Of a stretch of DNA of 10,769 bases, positions 223 to 10,675 are shown piece after piece. This DNA comes from an uncultured Bacilli bacterium (GTDB lineage: Bacteria; Bacillota_I; Bacilli_A; RF39; UBA660). Position 1 is the first letter of the stretch. The number at the start of each line of letters is the position of its first letter. The position numbers were made by a program, and so were the translations under genes. The DNA lies in contig CANRHY010000024.1 in the NCBI GenBank assembly GCA_947630515.1, positions 1-10,769 on the forward strand, read 5' to 3'. Under the pieces are notes generated by a model. That model worked only from the letters and a program-made list of their open reading frames with translations, was not told where the DNA came from and ran no database searches.

Positions 223-456
223 TTATTCAAAAAATTTATTTATAGGAACTCTTAGTACTTCACTTATTTTGTATAGGTTATATATGCTGATACCTTGGCT
301 TAAATTATTACTTTCAAGTCCTCCAATAAGTGAAGTACTAACACCAATACGCTTGGCTAATTCTCTTTGTGTCATATTACCTTTATCTATATTATATAGT
401 AATCTATATCTTTTTATATTATTTCCTACTTTTTTATTTATCATCTCTTCTGTCAT
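223..456 (-). CDS. Small XRE-family (HTH_3) DNA-binding regulator
   Basis: 77 residues, essentially one XRE/Cro-CI helix-turn-helix domain. The HTH spans about residues 29-49, running from TQRELAKRIGVS (helix 2) into the recognition helix TSLIGGLES; the remainder gives helices 4-5, ending in VPINKFFE. There is no sensor or dimerisation domain beyond the fold, as in Cro-like repressors. The ATG lies 9 nt beyond the stop of the upstream surface-protein gene, and its ribosome binding site AAGGTG overlaps that TAA, so the two genes should be co-transcribed and translationally coupled. It probably binds the paired palindromes at 2273-2346, either repressing its own operon or opposing the divergent XRE protein. 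An ATGATAT half-site like those in the operators also lies at its start codon (455-461). The family is clear; the target is inference. Confidence 0.85.
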   Translation of the reverse strand: MTEEMINKKVGNNIKRYRLLYNIDKGNMTQRELAKRIGVSTSLIGGLESNNLSQGISIYNLYKISEVLRVPINKFFE

Positions 457-465
457 GATATCACC

Positions 466-2262
466 TTAGTTATTAGCAGCGGCACATTTAGCTGAGATTG
501 GTTGGACAACAAATGGGTCATTAATTTCTTTTCCATCAGCAAAATTTACCTCACCTGTTGCGTCAGATAGGGTTACACAGGATTTTAGAGAAATTACTGG
601 ACGAATCATGCACGATTCGAATACTTCTCTAGGGTATAGCCCGCCAGGATAATTACCATCGGGTTCTACTTGGTACACGTTTGCTTGGTCCCCGTCCTGA
701 ACATGAGCCGGACTCATTAGCCACCAACAACGATTCGAACAACTAAATCCACGACTGCTCGCGTAATAATATGCATATGGAGATTTCAAGCTCCAACCTG
801 GCTTTCCACCAGCATATACGATTTCGTCCTCAGTCATTAATCCTATTGGATTTTTTAATAGTGCGCTACTATTCATTCCACTAAATTTGTCTTCTTCTGC
901 TTGTAAAGTTTCTATTAAATTTCCTTGATAATCTACTCCGCACCTGTAACTCGGTCTCGAGATTTCTCTTGCTGATCGATCTAGAGCAGCATAAGTCATT
1001 ACACCGCGAGATTGATAGTTAGATGTTGCTCTATCATTACAATACACTGCTGTTTTACTTATGTATGAACCATATGAAGTTTTTATTTTTTGATTAAACC
1101 AGCCATTTAATGTGTATAAGTTTGTGTCCGTATCAGAACCCAGTATTGTCGTGTTAGTACTATTACCCCTATTATTGATTAAATTTCCAGTACTTCCATA
1201 TTTAAACCCTACGTATCTTGTACCTATCCCATATTCTTGATAATATCCTCCACCGGTGAATTGAGACGCACTCGTGCCTGACTCACTAGCCAAACCTCCA
1301 TACAATAATCTCAAACTTCCATCTTCATTTGTCCTGATTATTCTCCAGTAAAATCCAGCAAATGATACCCAGTTGTTGGTTACTGCTCCACTATAATAAT
1401 ATACTTTGTCCATTAATTTATCTGCTCCTGCTATACTGCTTTCTATGAAGTTTCCATCTTCATAGTATGCACTGGCTGTTGTATTAGTACTACTAAAATC
1501 TGCCCTTTGTGTATCTATCGTTTTTGGATATTGTTTTTTCATAATTTCATATACTTGCTCTGCTAGTGTTGGTTTATCTTCAGCTAATGTTACTGTACAT
1601 GTCATATCTTGTGTTACTGTTTCTGCTTTTACTGTATCTCCATCTATTGTACATTCACCATCTACTGTCATTTCTTCTGTTGTGTATCCATCTTCTGCTG
1701 TAACATTAAATGTTATTGTGCCATTCTCTTCTACTTGTTTTGGACTTTTATCTACATGCCCTCCTGTTACATTTACTGTTACTTCATACCCTTTATTTCT
1801 TACTGCTATGTAATTTGTAGTAGTTCCTACTTCTTGACTTCCTTTATATCCTCCACTTACATTAAATTCTACTGTTACATTACTGTCTGTTTCTATTACT
1901 ACTTTTATTTCTTTTGTATTTTTTCCATTTTCATATTTATTTACTTCTCCTGTTGGATTATCTGTTGTACTATTTAAGTAATATACTTTTGCATTAGAGT
2001 TACCATCTGTTATTCTATACTCTAAACTATATTTACTATCTATTCCATTTAAACTTGTTATTTTTATTGTTACTACTTTTGTTTCTGAAGTTGTTACTGT
2101 TGTTGTATTTTGATTATCTATTTGTATTCCATATAATAAATTACTTACAAGTAACTCGCTTGCTTTGTATTCTTTAGTATTAAGCACAAATATTGCATAA
2201 CTTGTACTTAGTATTATTGTAAGTAATATACTTGTTAATATTATTAAATTTCTTTTTTTCAT
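466..2262 (-). CDS. Secreted/anchored DUF6273-like surface protein with InlB-type repeat
   Basis: 598 residues from the ATG at 2262. An in-frame ATG four codons upstream (2274) overlaps the ribosome binding site GGAGG, so the inner ATG is preferred. Residues 2-23 are a signal peptide or signal anchor, resembling SipW-dependent leaders (ILSTSYAIF). Residues 24-155 are Thr/Asn/Val-rich and probably beta. About 158-227 is a divergent InlB B-repeat-like module. About 281-561 resembles the DUF6273/C-type-lectin-like domain, with FYWRIIRTNEDGS, YCNDR, RPSYRCG, GLMTEDEIVYAGG, WWLMSP and IRPVISLKS in order. Many cysteines in the C-terminal half suggest disulfides. No sorting signal is seen, so retention, if any, would be through the N-terminal segment. 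Binding or adhesion is a guess; no catalytic motif was recognised. The DNA for residues 515-554 is about 49% GC against roughly 20-25% for the N-terminal repeat region, suggesting a different history or diversification of the lectin-like end. Seven A follow the start codon (2253-2259), a possible slippage site. Confidence 0.75.
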   Translation of the reverse strand: MKKRNLIILTSILLTIILSTSYAIFVLNTKEYKASELLVSNLLYGIQIDNQNTTTVTTSETKVVTIKITSLNGIDSKYSLEYRITDGNSNAKVYYLNSTTDNPTGEVNKYENGKNTKEIKVVIETDSNVTVEFNVSGGYKGSQEVGTTTNYIAVRNKGYEVTVNVTGGHVDKSPKQVEENGTITFNVTAEDGYTTEEMTVDGECTIDGDTVKAETVTQDMTCTVTLAEDKPTLAEQVYEIMKKQYPKTIDTQRADFSSTNTTASAYYEDGNFIESSIAGADKLMDKVYYYSGAVTNNWVSFAGFYWRIIRTNEDGSLRLLYGGLASESGTSASQFTGGGYYQEYGIGTRYVGFKYGSTGNLINNRGNSTNTTILGSDTDTNLYTLNGWFNQKIKTSYGSYISKTAVYCNDRATSNYQSRGVMTYAALDRSAREISRPSYRCGVDYQGNLIETLQAEEDKFSGMNSSALLKNPIGLMTEDEIVYAGGKPGWSLKSPYAYYYASSRGFSCSNRCWWLMSPAHVQDGDQANVYQVEPDGNYPGGLYPREVFESCMIRPVISLKSCVTLSDATGEVNFADGKEINDPFVVQPISAKCAAANN

Positions 2263-2272: not shown

Positions 2273-2291
2273 ATATCATAAAATATGATAT
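2273..2291. promoter_or_regulatory. Operator O1: 19-bp palindrome
   Basis: ATATCATA-AAA-TATGATAT is an 8-3-8 perfect inverted repeat. It lies just downstream of the predicted transcription start of the leftward surface-protein operon and directly before its ribosome binding site. An identical site in reverse orientation is at 2328-2346. It is a candidate binding site for one or both flanking XRE regulators. Confidence 0.75.
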
Positions 2292-2299
2292 CTATTTAT

Positions 2300-2328
2300 A
2301 TATTACTATTTATTGTTGAATATGTCAA
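2300..2328 (-). promoter_or_regulatory. Promoter of the surface-protein/XRE operon
   Basis: Leftward -35 TTGACA (2328-2323, full consensus), a 17-bp spacer, and -10 TAATAT (2305-2300, 4 of 6). Transcription should start near 2293, just before operator O1. The first base of the -35 box is shared with operator O2, so an O2-bound protein should hinder polymerase. Confidence 0.7.
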
Positions 2329-2344
2329 TATCATATTTTATGAT
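2316..2344 (+). promoter_or_regulatory. Promoter of the divergent XRE gene
   Basis: Rightward -35 TTGAAT (2316-2321), a 17-bp spacer, and -10 TATGAT (2339-2344, 5 of 6). The -10 is the right half of operator O2. It overlaps the leftward promoter face to face, so the two promoters should exclude each other. Confidence 0.65.
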
Positions 2345-2346
2345 AT
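2328..2346. promoter_or_regulatory. Operator O2: same palindrome, inverted
   Basis: ATATCATA-TTT-TATGATAT is the exact reverse complement of O1. The centres of O1 (2282) and O2 (2337) are 55 bp apart, a little over five helical turns. O2 covers the -10 of the rightward XRE promoter and touches the -35 of the leftward promoter, so occupancy could control both. Confidence 0.75.
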
Positions 2347-2386
2347 ATTCTAATATCTCAGTTTGAGTTATGGTTAAATATATACG

Positions 2387-2400: not shown

Positions 2401-2637
2401 ATGAATAGATTGAAAGACTTAAGAGAAGAACATGATTTACTTCAAAAAGATATTGCTAAATATTTAAATATGTCTCAAAATGGTTATTCTTATTATGAAA
2501 CAGAAGGACTAGATATACCTACTTCAATATTAAAAAAACTTGCTAGGTATTATAATACTAGCATTGATTATTTACTATATTTAACTGATAAAAGAGAACC
2601 TTATCCTAAAAGTATAATTGACGAAGAAAATATGTAA
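2401..2637 (+). CDS. Small XRE-family (HTH_3) regulator, divergent
   Basis: 78 residues, one XRE/Cro-CI helix-turn-helix domain. It begins MNRLKDLREEHDLLQKDIA; the recognition helix is about residues 25-33 (SQNGYSYYE), followed by the characteristic ILKKLARYYNTSIDYLL and a short charged tail. This compact type is common in Firmicutes, phages and integrative elements. It is transcribed away from the surface-protein operon, and its promoter -10 is embedded in operator O2, so autoregulation and repression of the divergent operon are the natural reading. It differs in sequence from the XRE protein at 223-456; two different short repressors sharing one control region is the layout of Cro/CI switches. 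DNA-binding function is secure by family; its exact target is inference. Confidence 0.88.
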   Translation: MNRLKDLREEHDLLQKDIAKYLNMSQNGYSYYETEGLDIPTSILKKLARYYNTSIDYLLYLTDKREPYPKSIIDEENM

Positions 2638-3934: not shown

Positions 3935-6900
3935 CTATTCCTCCCCTAACTTAATATTATGTAACTCATTAATTTCTGGTAAATTCTTAATAGATAGTGA
4001 TGTACTTGTAAGTCTTTGACCGTCAAGTGATAATGGGTCATCTACTCTATATAACTCTGCTCTTACATTTTTACCTATAAGGCTCTTATATTCTTCTTGT
4101 GACATAGCAAATACCCAGTATCCATCATGTACGTCATATACAGTGCCTTCACTTGTAAGTTCTGCAAATAATAAACCTTCTGCCTCTTCAAATAATATCT
4201 CTCCAGTATCAGCATCAACTAAAATTACAACATTAAATGCTGGATTACCACGATACTTACCAGTAAATACTACACTACCTTTTTCGATTTTACTAGGAGT
4301 TTCTTCCCCATCTACATTATAGTAGTAGTCACTTTCTAGTATACCATATCCACTTTCGTCTAAACTTACATCATCTCCAGGAGGAGCGATTAAATCTATC
4401 TCACTACCACTTATACCACTATTATTTTTAGAAACTATTTTTACATATGATATATCATTATAAGTATATAATTGATTACCACCAGTAGTTCCTTCTTTAT
4501 CAAAGTAAACTATATTAGTGTAATCATTACTTAGATTTAAATCAAATGTACCTTCTTTAGCTAAAATCCACTTTTCTCTATCAGTACTTACATATACTTG
4601 ATAATCAGTTATAGTAAAACTATCTAATACACCATCAGTTACTAAAGCTTTATATTTAATACCAGATAATGCAAGTTTACTATTTAAATCAATTATTATA
4701 TATGGTAAGTTACTATCTTTTTCATCGATTTTAACACTACCGTTAAATCCAAGAGATTCATCTCCATCAATTAAATATTTAACAGATAAATCTTCATAAT
4801 TAAAGTCTTCTTTTTCAGTATCTACATTATCACTTTCACCTTTATAGTTACTTTCAATATCAAAATTATCTTTAACTATACTTCCATCATGACTTACTTT
4901 AACTTCATCTAATACAAATTCTTTAGTCTTATTAAGAAGATAGTCATAGGCTACTACTTTATAAGTAACAGCTTGATTATTTAAAGCTCCTACTATATCA
5001 GTAAATGTGTTTTCTGTAGTAAACATTATAACTTCACCATTTCTAATAATTTCATATCCTAGTATTTTATCATCATCTTTGTTAACACTAAAGTTAAGAG
5101 TAATTCTCTTATTTTGAGTATCAACTTGACCAAAACTTGCAGTAACTAAAGTATCACTATCGATAGCACTTACATTATTAATTCTTTTACGTCTTGCTTC
5201 ATCATTTAAATACCATATAGCTTTAGAATACTTATCTTTATAATCTTTACTATTAATATAATCTCTTACATTTTGAGTTATTACATAACCCCATTTTTCA
5301 AAGAATGGAATTAAGTTTTCTCCTGCAGCATCGCTTGCATACATGATAAGTAATTCATCTTTAGTTCCAGATAAATTATTACTTCTACTTAATTTATTAA
5401 TTCTTGAATAAATAGAGTCACGATCTGTAAATGTTAGATTATCGTCATATGCTAAGTGTAATTGCCAGTACATACCTAAAGAAACAAACACATTTGTAGC
5501 TTTACCTGTAGTACCACTTGTAACTTTTTCATAAATCTTTGGATAGAAATTATTAACTTCTAACCTAGATTCACTCTTATCATTAGCAGTTTGTGCGAGT
5601 AATGCATAGACATTATTTGTAACTTCAGCAGTAGCTAATTTACCTTGATTTATTTGGTGACCAATTTCATGGCTTATACCCCAGCCGAAGTATCCATTAA
5701 AGTCTTCACTTTCATACTTTTTACCACCTAAAAGACCTTTAGTAGATTCATACTCAATACCTATATGAAGTCCTCCAGCATACATAAATGCTCCATCAAA
5801 CATTTTCATATAACGGATATTTATCCTACTTGTTGGTGCTTTATCAGTTGAAACGTTAGTATCATGTGATAAACCTTTGTGTCTGTAGAACATATTAACC
5901 ATTTCATCAAATGCTAAAGTGCTTTCATTTATCATATTAACTTGAGTATTTAACTCACTTGAGTCTTTAGAAATAGCTTCATATGTAGCAGTTGCGGGAA
6001 TTGAGAATAGTCCTTCATCTGTAGCAATTTCAGTAGAATTAAGAACACTAAATTTCTTATTAAATGTTAATCCTTCACTAGAATAGATTCCCTCTAAACT
6101 ATTAACATAACTCTTAAGTTCTGTAATATACTTCTCTATTAAAGATTTTCTAGTACTTTCATCTGTTACATTATATAAATTTAGATAAGGTATCTTTTCT
6201 CCACCACTTACACGAATTTTTATAGTTTCACTACCAGTAGCCTTCGGATATCTTACATAAACAGAACCGCCTCTTTCACTACTATTAGCTCCAATAGTAG
6301 GAACAGTAACTATATTTTGTCCTTTATGAAGTGGTACACTATAAGTTTGATTCCACTTATTAGCTTCAGCATAATATTGAGTAAATACAAGTTCTGGCAT
6401 AACATTACCTGTACTACCTACATAGATAACAAGTTCTTCTCCAGCTCTTGCCGCAATACCAAGTGGTTGATAGTCACTAATACTCATAGCAAAACCTAAA
6501 TGTTTATCATTTTGATTACTTATCTTAGGACTTATTTCTATTACATCATTTACATTAGTATCATTTAATATTTGTTTAGCATACTCTAAATCTTTTAAAA
6601 TAGTATCTCTTTCATAGTGATATTCATTACTATTTTCATCTATAGTATTAGCCCTTTTCTCTAAATCTTCTATAGTTTTAATATTAACATTACTATTAAG
6701 TTCAACTCTTAAATCATCTTTAAATAATTTAGCCACATCTTCTTCAAGTGAATCATATTCATATATTTTTACTTCACTCATTTGAACATTACCACCTGAA
6801 TAAGTAGATAAAGCAATTTGTACCCTGCTAGTAGTTATAGGTTCTAAACATTTTATAAAGAAATAAATTCTTCCATTAGAATCAGTCTTCCTTACAATAT

Positions 6901-8959
6901 TAGCAGCCATAGTTTTTGCTGTACTACCATTCATTTTATCACCATCGTAATAAAATACTTTAGCTTGATATAATGCATGATTATAATTATCTGGAACAGT
7001 TACTACAAAATCTTTTAATTTATACTCTTGGTCTAACACTATAATTGGTGTACCTTCTTTATAATAGCCGCCACCAGCATCCCATAAATTTTTATACCAA
7101 TATGATAAATGGTCATCATCTACTATAGAAAACTTATCTCCATTTACCATCTCACCATCTTTATATACGACGTCTTTTATATGGCTAGTTAACATATGAT
7201 ATCCATTAGAAGTATTAATTAGTTTATACTTTGGATAAATAGTTGGGTCTGCATTTTTAGTTTCACCACTAACAATAGTATAAGACTCACTTTCTCCTAA
7301 ATCATTATTACCAGTTATATATACTTGATAAGTAGCTTTAACTTTTAAATTTCTAAGTTCATAACTACTTGCTTTTATGTCTTTAACTACAGTGTATTCA
7401 CTTTCACTTTCTTCTTTATAATATAAATTATAACTTAAAGTATCTTTCATACTTTTCCAACCTATATTAAATCCAGCATATACGGGAGTTAGTACTACCA
7501 TATCAACCTTTGGTGGTTTTCTATTTGGAACAAGTGTAACGCTTACAATATCAGAAGGCTCACTTCTCCAGTCTCCATTAACAGATTGAACACTTACATA
7601 ATATTCTTGATAATTATCAAGTTCTTCTATTGTAAAAGTATTATAAGTAGTTTGATAAATAGTATTAGACATAATATTATCATTATTTACTTCTTGAAGT
7701 AAAATTTCATATCCAGTAACATTAGACATATTATCAAAAGTAACAGTCATCTTTTCACTAGCAGGTATTACATTCACATTAGTAGGCTTTTCAATATTAG
7801 GTTTAGGAACTTCTTCATAAACATTATTTAAAAAGTCGACTTTAGCAATCTCTGCTAAATTTTTATTTGATGATTTAGTTACTTTAATAGTTACTCTTTT
7901 AACCGCGACTTGTTTTCCAAGATCTATTACTATAGTATTTGGAGAACTTTTATCTGTAAAATTATGTGTATCATTTTTTATTTCATTACTTTTGTGAATA
8001 TCATCTAGTATAGTTCCATCTTCTAATTCTACACTAATGTCCATTTCTTCTGGAACATTTTCTTCTCCTACTTCTAAACGTATCTCGCTCATAAGCACAG
8101 AACTATCCATTTCTATATCTAATGAAGCTGGGTTTTCTTCTGTAATCTCGCCTTCGTTCATGGCCGCGAAACTAAGAGACCCATCATCATTTTGGGATAC
8201 ATCTGTTCCAGTAAATTTAACATTATTAGTATCAATTATATAAGAAGTATCAACTATACTAGCGCTTTCTTTTTCACCATTAATAATAGCAGTAATGTAG
8301 TTTAAATCAGCCACATCTACTACACCATCACGGTTTAAATCATATTTCTTTTCTTCACTTTCGAAATGTTTTAAAATGATTTCTTTATCTATATCATTTA
8401 CAGTATTATCATCGTTTACTTCTCCTGCTTCAAACATACCAGCAGTATTAGACAAACTTACACGCTTAGAATAATCATCTAGTGTTACAGATACATAAAA
8501 TGGCCTGTACCCGTCCCCATGATAACTAACTGTATAGTTGCCTGTCTTAATTCCGTAAACAGTAATGCCTATATATACCATATGATTTTCTTCATCTAAG
8601 CCACCTAAATCTAACCCTTGTTCATCAAGTTTTCTTACAAGTACTTCTACATTTTGCCCTTGATAACTCATAGTCTTCCTTACAGGTTCATCATAGTCAT
8701 CTATGTTTATATTTAAAGTGTTATTATCTAAATCTGTTAACTTTACATTTAAGTCTGTTTTTAAAGTATTTTGAATAGGTAAACTTAACTTTAAATCTAA
8801 TTCTAAATTACCAGTTAAATCCCCCATTTTACTTTCATTTACTTTATTATCTATAGTAGTTTGGTTTTCATGAAGTGACTCTAAAGCAAATAAATAATAT
8901 CCACCTACATAATTAAAAACAAAACAAAAGCATATAAAATAACTAAGTATTTTCTTCAT
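3935..8959 (-). CDS. Secreted M60 (enhancin-like) metallopeptidase with internal dockerin
   Basis: 1674 residues; AAAGGAGG (8970-8977) precedes the ATG by ten bases. Order: signal peptide (about 1-28); beta domain (50-170); dockerin (179-229) with two EF-hand-like loops, EVNDDNTVNDID (Glu at the first calcium position) and canonical DLNRDGVVDVAD; F5/8C-like region (235-385); two fibronectin III domains (about 391-478, 481-568); F5/8 type C/CBM32-like domain (575-735); M60 peptidase (about 815-1235); a fibronectin-like domain (1265-1355); another F5/8C-like domain (1385-1522); a C-terminal beta domain (1535-1660). The active site is HEIGH (1097-1101) with the downstream glutamate E1112, matching the gluzincin HExxHx(8-28)E pattern of M60. 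Characterised M60 relatives cleave mucin-type O-glycoproteins, and the CBM-like domains fit host-glycan binding. It has no membrane or sortase anchor, so the dockerin is its likely tether to the co-transcribed cohesin-like protein. An N-terminal rather than C-terminal dockerin is unusual. Confidence 0.92.
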   Translation of the reverse strand: MKKILSYFICFCFVFNYVGGYYLFALESLHENQTTIDNKVNESKMGDLTGNLELDLKLSLPIQNTLKTDLNVKLTDLDNNTLNINIDDYDEPVRKTMSYQGQNVEVLVRKLDEQGLDLGGLDEENHMVYIGITVYGIKTGNYTVSYHGDGYRPFYVSVTLDDYSKRVSLSNTAGMFEAGEVNDDNTVNDIDKEIILKHFESEEKKYDLNRDGVVDVADLNYITAIINGEKESASIVDTSYIIDTNNVKFTGTDVSQNDDGSLSFAAMNEGEITEENPASLDIEMDSSVLMSEIRLEVGEENVPEEMDISVELEDGTILDDIHKSNEIKNDTHNFTDKSSPNTIVIDLGKQVAVKRVTIKVTKSSNKNLAEIAKVDFLNNVYEEVPKPNIEKPTNVNVIPASEKMTVTFDNMSNVTGYEILLQEVNNDNIMSNTIYQTTYNTFTIEELDNYQEYYVSVQSVNGDWRSEPSDIVSVTLVPNRKPPKVDMVVLTPVYAGFNIGWKSMKDTLSYNLYYKEESESEYTVVKDIKASSYELRNLKVKATYQVYITGNNDLGESESYTIVSGETKNADPTIYPKYKLINTSNGYHMLTSHIKDVVYKDGEMVNGDKFSIVDDDHLSYWYKNLWDAGGGYYKEGTPIIVLDQEYKLKDFVVTVPDNYNHALYQAKVFYYDGDKMNGSTAKTMAANIVRKTDSNGRIYFFIKCLEPITTSRVQIALSTYSGGNVQMSEVKIYEYDSLEEDVAKLFKDDLRVELNSNVNIKTIEDLEKRANTIDENSNEYHYERDTILKDLEYAKQILNDTNVNDVIEISPKISNQNDKHLGFAMSISDYQPLGIAARAGEELVIYVGSTGNVMPELVFTQYYAEANKWNQTYSVPLHKGQNIVTVPTIGANSSERGGSVYVRYPKATGSETIKIRVSGGEKIPYLNLYNVTDESTRKSLIEKYITELKSYVNSLEGIYSSEGLTFNKKFSVLNSTEIATDEGLFSIPATATYEAISKDSSELNTQVNMINESTLAFDEMVNMFYRHKGLSHDTNVSTDKAPTSRINIRYMKMFDGAFMYAGGLHIGIEYESTKGLLGGKKYESEDFNGYFGWGISHEIGHQINQGKLATAEVTNNVYALLAQTANDKSESRLEVNNFYPKIYEKVTSGTTGKATNVFVSLGMYWQLHLAYDDNLTFTDRDSIYSRINKLSRSNNLSGTKDELLIMYASDAAGENLIPFFEKWGYVITQNVRDYINSKDYKDKYSKAIWYLNDEARRKRINNVSAIDSDTLVTASFGQVDTQNKRITLNFSVNKDDDKILGYEIIRNGEVIMFTTENTFTDIVGALNNQAVTYKVVAYDYLLNKTKEFVLDEVKVSHDGSIVKDNFDIESNYKGESDNVDTEKEDFNYEDLSVKYLIDGDESLGFNGSVKIDEKDSNLPYIIIDLNSKLALSGIKYKALVTDGVLDSFTITDYQVYVSTDREKWILAKEGTFDLNLSNDYTNIVYFDKEGTTGGNQLYTYNDISYVKIVSKNNSGISGSEIDLIAPPGDDVSLDESGYGILESDYYYNVDGEETPSKIEKGSVVFTGKYRGNPAFNVVILVDADTGEILFEEAEGLLFAELTSEGTVYDVHDGYWVFAMSQEEYKSLIGKNVRAELYRVDDPLSLDGQRLTSTSLSIKNLPEINELHNIKLGEE
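3940..3946 (-). promoter_or_regulatory. Ribosome binding site inside the end of the M60 gene
   Basis: GGGGAGG covers the final Gly-Glu codons of the peptidase gene and lies eight bases before the cohesin-like ATG. Ribosomes finishing the enzyme would be positioned to start the anchor, tying their synthesis together. Confidence 0.75.
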
Positions 8960-9732: not shown

Positions 9733-10617
9733 TTAGTTTGCTTTTCTTAATGCTAAAAGTAAACCTAAACTTATAAGTCCTATAAATCCATATAGAACGA
9801 TATTATCGCCAGTATTTGGATTTTCAGAATTTTCTTCTACAACGACATCTTTATATAGAACTTTAACTACTAAATCTTCAGATATAGCATCTTCTAATGA
9901 AAATTCTTTTTCTTCTTCATCTTTAGATACAACATACATACGGTCTAGTTCTTTTCCTTCTGGTGCTTCTAAGAAACTTTCTAAAATTTCTTTTTCAGTA
10001 TTAGAAAAATACTTATCTATAGTTTCTCCATCTTTTACTGTAAATGATTTAGTACCTTTTTCACTTTCAAATGTAAGTGTATGATAACCTTCAGATACTT
10101 CATCAAGTTTAATTTTCTCCACATTTAACTTAACTATAAATGTTTGGTCAACTGTATCATCACCATTCCAGTCAAATTCATATCTAATCATTTCTGGAGT
10201 TTCTTCAGATTTTGCTTTAAGAGCTTCTAAATCTTCCTCTTTAACTAAGAACCAAGCACTCATTTCTGTTTCACTAGGCTTATCTAAACCTTGTTCATAA
10301 GAATTTGTTTTAGTTCTTCCATCATAGAAAGTGTATGTATAAGTTGCTTTTGCTTTTTCATAACCAGCAGTTGGAGCAGTAACTTTAAATCCAATCCACC
10401 AGCCATCAACATTCCTTCCGATAGTTTCGTCCTTTGTAACCCATTCAAGATTTGCTTCATTAACTACATAAGTTACATCTTTAGTATTTGCTTCTGTTGG
10501 TGTAATAGTTACATTATCTGGAGTTATAGCTTCAAACTTACCAAATTCTTCTTCCGCACACAAACTAGGTACAAACATTAAAAACGCAAGTAATGTTGTA
10601 AACAATACCTTTTTCAT
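9733..10617 (-). CDS. Sortase-type (NPNTG) surface protein
   Basis: 294 residues; AAAGGAGGG lies three bases before the ATG. Residues 1-20 or so are a signal peptide ending PSLCAEE; the cysteine lacks a proper lipobox, so a lipoprotein is unlikely. About 25-170 is an Ig-like or beta region with WWIGFKVTAPTAGYEKA and a YTFYDG strand. About 178-260 resembles a degenerate Listeria-Bacteroides (InlB B-type) repeat, with HTLTFES, SFTVKDGETI and the closing ISEDLVVKVLYKD. The C-terminus has NPNTGD (266-271), a hydrophobic segment (273-289) and a short basic tail RKAN, the layout of an LPXTG-like sorting signal with N in place of L. It should be covalently attached to the wall by a sortase not encoded here. 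Function is unknown; binding or structural roles are typical. Its promoter contains a G8 tract, so expression may vary by slippage. Confidence 0.8.
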   Translation of the reverse strand: MKKVLFTTLLAFLMFVPSLCAEEEFGKFEAITPDNVTITPTEANTKDVTYVVNEANLEWVTKDETIGRNVDGWWIGFKVTAPTAGYEKAKATYTYTFYDGRTKTNSYEQGLDKPSETEMSAWFLVKEEDLEALKAKSEETPEMIRYEFDWNGDDTVDQTFIVKLNVEKIKLDEVSEGYHTLTFESEKGTKSFTVKDGETIDKYFSNTEKEILESFLEAPEGKELDRMYVVSKDEEEKEFSLEDAISEDLVVKVLYKDVVVEENSENPNTGDNIVLYGFIGLISLGLLLALRKAN

Positions 10618-10646: not shown

Positions 10647-10675
10647 ATTATACCCCCCCCAAGTGAATTAGTCAA
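10647..10675 (-). promoter_or_regulatory. Near-consensus promoter with G8 spacer tract
   Basis: Leftward -35 TTGACT (10675-10670, 5 of 6), a 17-bp spacer, and -10 TATAAT (10652-10647, 6 of 6). The eight spacer bases next to the -10 are all G (C8 on the given strand, 10653-10660). At the present length the spacing is optimal, so this copy should be on. Gain or loss of G would change the spacer to 18 or 16 bp. Confidence 0.85.

Follow-up and report, generated by a model that had tools for sequence, protein, structure and literature searches.

In phage lambda, the CI/Cro switch consists of an operator array between divergent promoters, together with HTH_3 proteins. The RstR-like repressors and the repressor of ICEBs1 likewise have divergent promoters with operators over both. 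The window (the whole stretch of 10,769 nucleotides that was analysed) resembles the lambda arrangement in having an operator array between divergent promoters and HTH_3 proteins, and the RstR-like and ICEBs1 systems in having operators over both of these promoters. XRE_R, the HTH_3 protein encoded to the right of the array, is small, as are the RstR-like and ICEBs1 regulators, and matches the RstR model at 6.8e-11 and ICEBs1 Xre (7t8i) at 1.2e-7. Its score for the RstR family (NCBIfam NF041951) is 42.4, below the cut-off of 80, which places it outside that family. Unlike the RstR-like and ICEBs1 systems, the output here is a surface protein, and XRE_R consists of one domain, in which no sensor or inducer part can be seen. 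No phage or ICE gene is present among the Pfam matches of eight window ORFs (two ORFs are without a match), which for phage genes agrees with what the preliminary description of this DNA had noted. Unlike lambda, one repressor tracks the sites of the window and the second XRE protein shows no link to them. By itself, an autoregulated divergent repressor is of an ordinary kind.

The sites in the window very probably belong, as private operators, to one such autoregulated repressor. O1 and O2 would be operators of XRE_R, acting as a divergent repressor dedicated to one surface-protein gene, here called SURF; a probability of about 0.8 is given to this reading. The coordinates of the features are listed in Table 1.

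Table 1. Features of the divergent XRE_R and SURF region, in window positions.
Feature	Position	Strand	Remarks
XRE_L, companion HTH_3 gene just behind SURF	223..456	-	
SURF, proposed target: surface protein, N-terminus hydrophobic, C-terminal domain of DUF6273 type	466..2262	-	
O1 operator, 8-3-8 dyad, AAA centre	2273..2291	.	at the expected leftward transcript start, just before GGAGG
SURF-operon promoter, TTGACA-17-TAATAT	2300..2328	-	consensus match only
XRE_R promoter, TTGAAT-17-TATGAT, overlapping the leftward promoter	2316..2344	+	consensus match only
O2 operator, 8-3-8 dyad, TTT centre	2328..2346	.	over the rightward -10, touches the leftward -35
O3, candidate weak third operator, ATATCTCA-GTT-TGAGTTAT	2353..2371	.	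7/8 paired; spacing to O2 exactly 25 bp
XRE_R, Cro/CI-type repressor of 78 aa, single domain, proposed O1/O2 ligand	2401..2637	+	HTH_3 match and helix-operator covariation

O1 and O2 share the general form ATATCATA-NNN-TATGATAT, each being an 8-bp perfect inverted repeat around a 3-nt centre (O1, ATATCATA-AAA-TATGATAT; O2, ATATCATA-TTT-TATGATAT). There are 36 nt between them, their centres are 55 bp apart and they are exact reverse complements of one another. The perfect 19-bp palindrome reported earlier, occurring twice in opposite orientation, is therefore correct as to the two copies, their places and their reverse complementarity, but it is perfect for 16 of its 19 bases only and the sense of each copy is set by the 3-nt centre alone. 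These are the only two perfect 8-3-8 dyads in the window. In 300 dinucleotide shuffles of the window the mean number of such dyads was 0.50 and a pair with the same half-site within 140 nt never occurred (0/300), nor did a two-dyad pair arise in any of 3000 shuffles of the 138-nt gap. The shuffles of window and gap rule out a chance origin for the pair. A looser search, with up to 3 mismatches, found two or more in 39 of 200 shuffles and by itself would not rule out chance. The host assembly (G000; 126 contigs, 900,548 bases, 74% complete) has the exact palindrome solely as O1 and O2, and seven further places match it with 2 mismatches. The weak dyad to the right of O2 scores 11/16 to the class half-site, which is the threshold used, and may be a third operator. 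An Rfam scan of the window gave no match.

A consensus scan found 8 promoter-like sites in positions 2200-2460, compared with 3.3 in shuffles, and the operators overlap both of the divergent promoters, which are identified by consensus only. The earlier placement of O2 on the rightward -10 and leftward -35, and of O1 at the leftward start, fits the consensus promoters at 2328..2300 and 2316..2344. The gene arrangement, with an XRE gene divergent from a surface-protein/XRE operon across the 138-nt gap, also stands as first described, both XRE proteins being of the HTH_3 type (XRE_R, PF01381, 46.4 bits with a cut-off of 23; XRE_L, 42.2 bits). The ATG at 2262 is preferred as the start of SURF because GGAGG is present at 2268-2272, although the ORF also opens at 2274. 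Description of the product as DUF6273-like is not borne out by its Pfam score (PF19789, 16.8 bits, below the gathering cut-off of 23.5) but is favoured by fold comparison, which supports a domain of this type, and PF19789 is carried by some SURF homologues. Downstream of XRE_R there is a gene for a YtxH-like protein and, farther on, genes for a peptidase M60 protein and others. The peptidase M60 protein (3935-8959, - strand) is 1674 aa long and matches peptidase M60 and fibronectin III; its F5/8 and dockerin-like matches are both below their cut-offs. This composition suggests the use of mucin or glycoproteins.

Homologues of XRE_R were taken from 60 loci of named genomes, of which 56 were analysed (L200-L203, being weaker or partial matches, were excluded from the counts), and with 7 others these provided 63 gaps. 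Among named genomes, the closest relatives of XRE_R are from uncultured Bacilli MAGs, many of them isolates 'Lapin...', and from Candidatus Caccenecus avistercoris, with the own genome possibly not covered. The exact 19-bp palindrome, which the preliminary description had proposed to follow through relatives, is in none of the 8 same-genus genomes. It was also rejected as a marker, being found in 3 of 98 genomes, which are the own and, as single copies beside unrelated genes, G030 and G047 of the family. A more telling test than the exact sequence is whether orthologous loci have diverged operators at equivalent places, and they do. The G008 orthologue, the closest with the same recognition helix (SQNGYSYYE), is 78% identical to XRE_R; its sites CATCCTATTTTATGATATC (matching O1) and ATATCACATTTTAGGATAT (matching O2) have changed bases and keep the 55-bp distance.

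Different recognition helices are paired with different half-sites: SQTGYSQYE with ATAACTTA, SQTGYSKYE with ATAATCTA, SQVAYSYYE with TTAAAACA, DQSNYSKYE with ATAGGTAA and KQQQYSEYE with ACAAAACA. Further helices are represented by single cases. Half-sites of the same helix class have a similarity of 6.40 of 8 and those of different classes one of 3.17, a contrast reached by 0 of 20000 label permutations in a test that ignores relatedness, covers the 33 of 63 gaps with a dyad of at least 7/8 (24 of the 33 being in five classes of two or more members) and includes some loci (e.g. L146, L154, L182) where the dyad used is unlikely to be the operator. The DQSNYSKYE and KQQQYSEYE pairings recur in separate genomes, which eases the concern over relatedness without removing it. 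There are exceptions. No such dyad is present at L011 (DQSNYSKYE) or at the second gene of L013 (KQQQYSEYE), each of which comes immediately after another gene, 6 of 35 genus-and-family homologues have no dyad of 7/8 within 150 nt, and G001, with the SQTGYSQYE helix, has a loose fit to the class half-site (12 and 14 of 16). With these exceptions, and with relatedness not fully controlled, the palindrome tracks the recognition helix of XRE_R across loci. This covariation makes XRE_R the likely ligand, in line with the earlier proposal that an XRE protein binds the palindromes.

Operator geometry was scanned at the 34 loci of the five helix classes, each class with its own half-site. At the threshold used, three or more sites are present in 20 of the 34 loci, two in 7, one in 3 and none in 4. 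Neighbouring sites are exactly 25 bp apart in 27 of 55 spacings, at 25 of the 34 loci and in all five classes, one of the 27 being that from O2 to the weak O3; the next commonest spacing, 28 bp, was found 5 times. The sequence GTCAA, the reverse complement of the TTGAC in the target promoter, was found in 47 of the 63 gaps, compared with 6.7 in mononucleotide shuffles. It is in 23 of the 34 five-class loci, and in 22 its first base is exactly 4 nt ahead of a site. By inspection, GTCAA is also 4 nt before O2 in the window, and this position marks O2 as the inner site and O1 as the outer. Many orthologues also have a middle site, which the window lacks. In just 20 of 63 gaps is there a TATGAT-like hexamer no more than 30 nt away from GTCAA.

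XRE_R presumably binds O1 and O2 as a dimer. On O2 it would block its own -10 and the SURF -35, and on O1 the start of the SURF transcript, with O2 serving both promoters and O1 that of SURF alone. XRE_R would hold itself at a low set level with SURF off or low, and SURF would come on when XRE_R falls or is lost. Binding, repression and release are predicted here from the sites, their placement over consensus promoters, the conserved architecture, the helix-site covariation and the repeated gene family, all of which are read from the sequence. With a lone single-domain repressor that controls both its own gene and its target, negative autoregulation is predicted, and this, together with target repression by XRE_R, is the most likely scheme. 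Bistability would depend on a feedback of which there is no sign here, and none of the observations calls for it. The same type of repressor, with the recurring spacing but with a different half-site and matching helix, would act at other secreted-protein genes of the lineage. Each switch could be insulated from the others because half-site and recognition helix differ between loci.

The wiring had been described initially as that of a two-repressor Cro/CI switch. In such a bistable switch XRE_R and XRE_L would compete for O1 and O2, each favouring its own transcript. Both are HTH_3 proteins, there is one in each transcript with the operators between them, and XRE_L is in the target operon, the position expected of a Cro-like partner. 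However, the operator follows the XRE_R helix and no second repressor is conserved with the operators, an XRE_L homologue being present at 1 of the 56 XRE_R loci (flanks at most 4 kb long and often less). There are 8 matches to XRE_L of at least 79% identity (range 79-95%) in the own assembly, yet the palindrome is not repeated with them. Among these other XRE_L cassettes, the SURF 5' end is on the contig only for C20 and C63 (98 nt); the C20 XRE_L is 95% identical, and its SURF gene is preceded by a poly-G leader, with no palindrome of this kind in the 5' region. A two-repressor switch is therefore improbable, and this part of the preliminary description is not upheld.

XRE_L belongs to a repeated surface-protein cassette. 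All 7 examined matches in the assembly (C50 is not among them) directly follow or overlap a SURF copy or piece. In relatives, the SURF C-terminal motif is found shortly upstream in 9 of the 15 returned XRE_L loci of at least 57% identity, with no more than 175 nt between the SURF stop codon and XRE_L, and with two of the 15 at a contig start. XRE_L is probably co-transcribed with SURF and probably acts elsewhere. A TATCACTA block was seen by eye in C1, C20, C30 and C22, as a candidate shared XRE_L operator. On C71 (L091, 3439-5260) the SURF gene is split by a frameshift near residue 510, and the XRE_L behind it is intact.

It is quite unlikely that the palindrome is instead bound by one XRE protein with many targets elsewhere, local autoregulation by XRE_R being incidental. 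Cross-regulation is conceivable, 18 of 38 HTH_3 matches in the assembly being in or next to SURF cassettes, but the exact palindrome is confined to this gap and none of the seven two-mismatch places is at an examined SURF 5' end. An invertible promoter, in which the inverted 19-bp copies recombine and turn the 36-bp promoter segment around, would have the required exact inverted copies flanking a promoter but is hardly credible, since each arm is itself palindromic and the sense of an inversion would lie in 3 nt, the homologous -35 keeps one sense and place (the GTCAA 4 nt before a site), the G008 arms are not identical and there is no recombinase among the Pfam matches of the 8 window ORFs.

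The genes divergent from XRE_R-type repressors generally encode proteins with a hydrophobic N-terminus, as in secreted or anchored proteins. This was found for divergent ORFs of at least 80 aa at 43 of 46 loci (10 of the 56 loci have no such ORF), compared with 45 of 149 other ORFs of at least 150 aa in the same loci. A surface protein as the output, as first proposed, is supported. SURF homologues were found by phmmer at only 9 of the 56 XRE_R loci, therefore several protein families are partners of this type of repressor.

SURF has 38 matches in its own 900-kb, 74%-complete assembly, and 1766 homologues were found among 7999 candidates scored in a large database. An adjacent divergent regulator of HTH or RHH-like type is present at 8 of 17 examined non-tandem SURF 5' ends. 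These are of the HTH_3 type on C24, C9, C28, C65, C81 and C14 (on C28 the match reaches 19.5 bits, short of the cut-off at 23), RHH and HTH on C60, and RHH-like on C2, where the assignment was made by eye and there is no Pfam match. The C60 locus (L103, 4347-4728) has a divergent ribbon-helix-helix gene then an HTH gene, with TAGTGATATC repeated in the promoter, and appears to be another private-regulator design. A poly-G leader is present at 6 of the 17 SURF 5' ends (C1, C20, C30, C77, C37 and C83), those on C37 and C83 being N-terminal fragments that were taken as SURF by eye and are outside the 38 matches. Two have neither regulator nor poly-G leader (C22 and C98), C106 was not classifiable and C63, with 98 nt of flank, was excluded.

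There are 15 distinct tracts of at least 8 G in the own assembly, in two modes. Six are just before TATAAT, four of these with a visible TTGAC-type -35. The other nine are G8/G9 tracts in a leader (L127, L128, L133, L135, L137, L139, L140, L142 and L143, on C1, C10, C20, C30, C37, C61, C77, C83 and C85), ahead of a terminator hairpin where the contig reaches, with three of the nine contigs ending before a gene. All of these leaders except that on C1 have a MKKIISFNFSHKKI-like leader ORF. The 12 tracts with a gene in view all precede genes with a hydrophobic N-terminus, as judged by eye. Several of the poly-G tracts listed for relatives precede or lie in genes that do not resemble surface-protein genes, which speaks against a role of poly-G at surface genes alone. 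One of the four tracts with a visible -35 is in the window, an eight-G tract at 10653-10660 (- strand) between TTGACT and TATAAT, with a spacer of 9+8 = 17 nt. It is upstream of the gene at 9733-10617, the product of which has a signal-like N-terminus, and is a candidate slippage-variable promoter.

The poly-G leaders before surface-protein genes are candidate slippage-controlled attenuators. Leader frames were scored on C30, C37, C77, C83, G002_C2, G004_C2, G008_C1 and G008_C6; left out were C1, C10, C20, G008_C10, G008_C19 and G001_C9 for the start codon and C61, C85, G005_C45 and G001_C9 for having no hairpin within the available sequence. In the first six of those scored, just one of the three G lengths lets the leader frame run into the 5' arm of the terminator hairpin. 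In G008_C1 two lengths read at least as far as the hairpin, and in G008_C6 one reads past it. By the G-length rule, C30 and C77 would be on, and C37 and C83 off. A search of 9 genus genomes with a leader-terminator pattern gave no match, the pattern being too tight and missing the own known copies as well. The Streptococcus gallolyticus pil1 locus is outlined in PMC3894217 as having a phase-variable leader attenuator with GCAGA repeats. The sister SURF leaders are predicted to be similar to pil1 as outlined there (PMC3894217), in that slippage would alter the length of the leader peptide and the ribosome would disrupt the terminator. Unlike that account of pil1 (PMC3894217), they have a poly-G tract rather than GCAGA, and this is absent at the SURF of the window.

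A non-coding template repeat rich in AAC is present on C37 (L314, around 7780-7833, - strand). It was found by pattern in the own assembly, and there is a copy with 3 mismatches in G002. Of 20 SURF variable regions, 11 match the template and differ from it chiefly at template A (229 of 410 positions, versus 39 of 870 elsewhere); the SURF copy of the window is not among the 11. Such changes are as a diversity-generating retroelement would make. An Avd-like gene and a 373-aa reverse transcriptase are found directly after SURF in G008 (L294, 966-2415) and after SURF and XRE_L in G002 (L296, 495-1944). The Avd-like match is 33 bits (cut-off 80) and the best model for the reverse transcriptase is that of a group II intron, at 100 bits (cut-off 300). 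This pair is possibly the retroelement machinery of the genus. The template was not found beside the reverse transcriptases of relatives, and the only reverse transcriptase found in the 74% complete own assembly is a different one, group II intron-like, on C28 (L054, 8272-9558), a few genes from a SURF/XRE cassette. The tentaclins are presented in PMC10743442 as diversity-generating retroelement targets with DUF6273 C-lectin domains that are phage receptor-binding proteins. The SURF family is like the tentaclins so presented (PMC10743442) in its DUF6273-type domain and in a variable region changed at template A. Unlike them (PMC10743442), the SURF proteins are dispersed chromosomal surface proteins, and the copy in the window does not fit the template.

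The combination of private repressors, poly-G tracts and a retroelement template on surface genes did not come up in searches of the open-licence PMC literature. The new part is a dedicated, apparently orthogonal repressor set on a surface repertoire that would be diversified by a retroelement. It is possible, although tentative, that this forms an expression-selecting layer, in which dozens of lectin-like surface proteins, many of them rewritten from the template, would each be under an insulated switch, either a private repressor helix-operator code or a poly-G attenuator, and the cell would show a changing subset of them. A shared XRE_L would then let the expressed copy influence its sisters. 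A whole repressor family dedicated to surface-protein genes is unusual, and makes this uncultured gut lineage a source of a natural set of apparently orthogonal repressors, as judged from the five helix-operator classes scanned, a few more seen by eye and the recurring 25-bp spacing. With poly-G tracts at surface genes and template rewriting of binding domains in the same genome, the generation and choice of variants in a small-genome gut commensal become testable.
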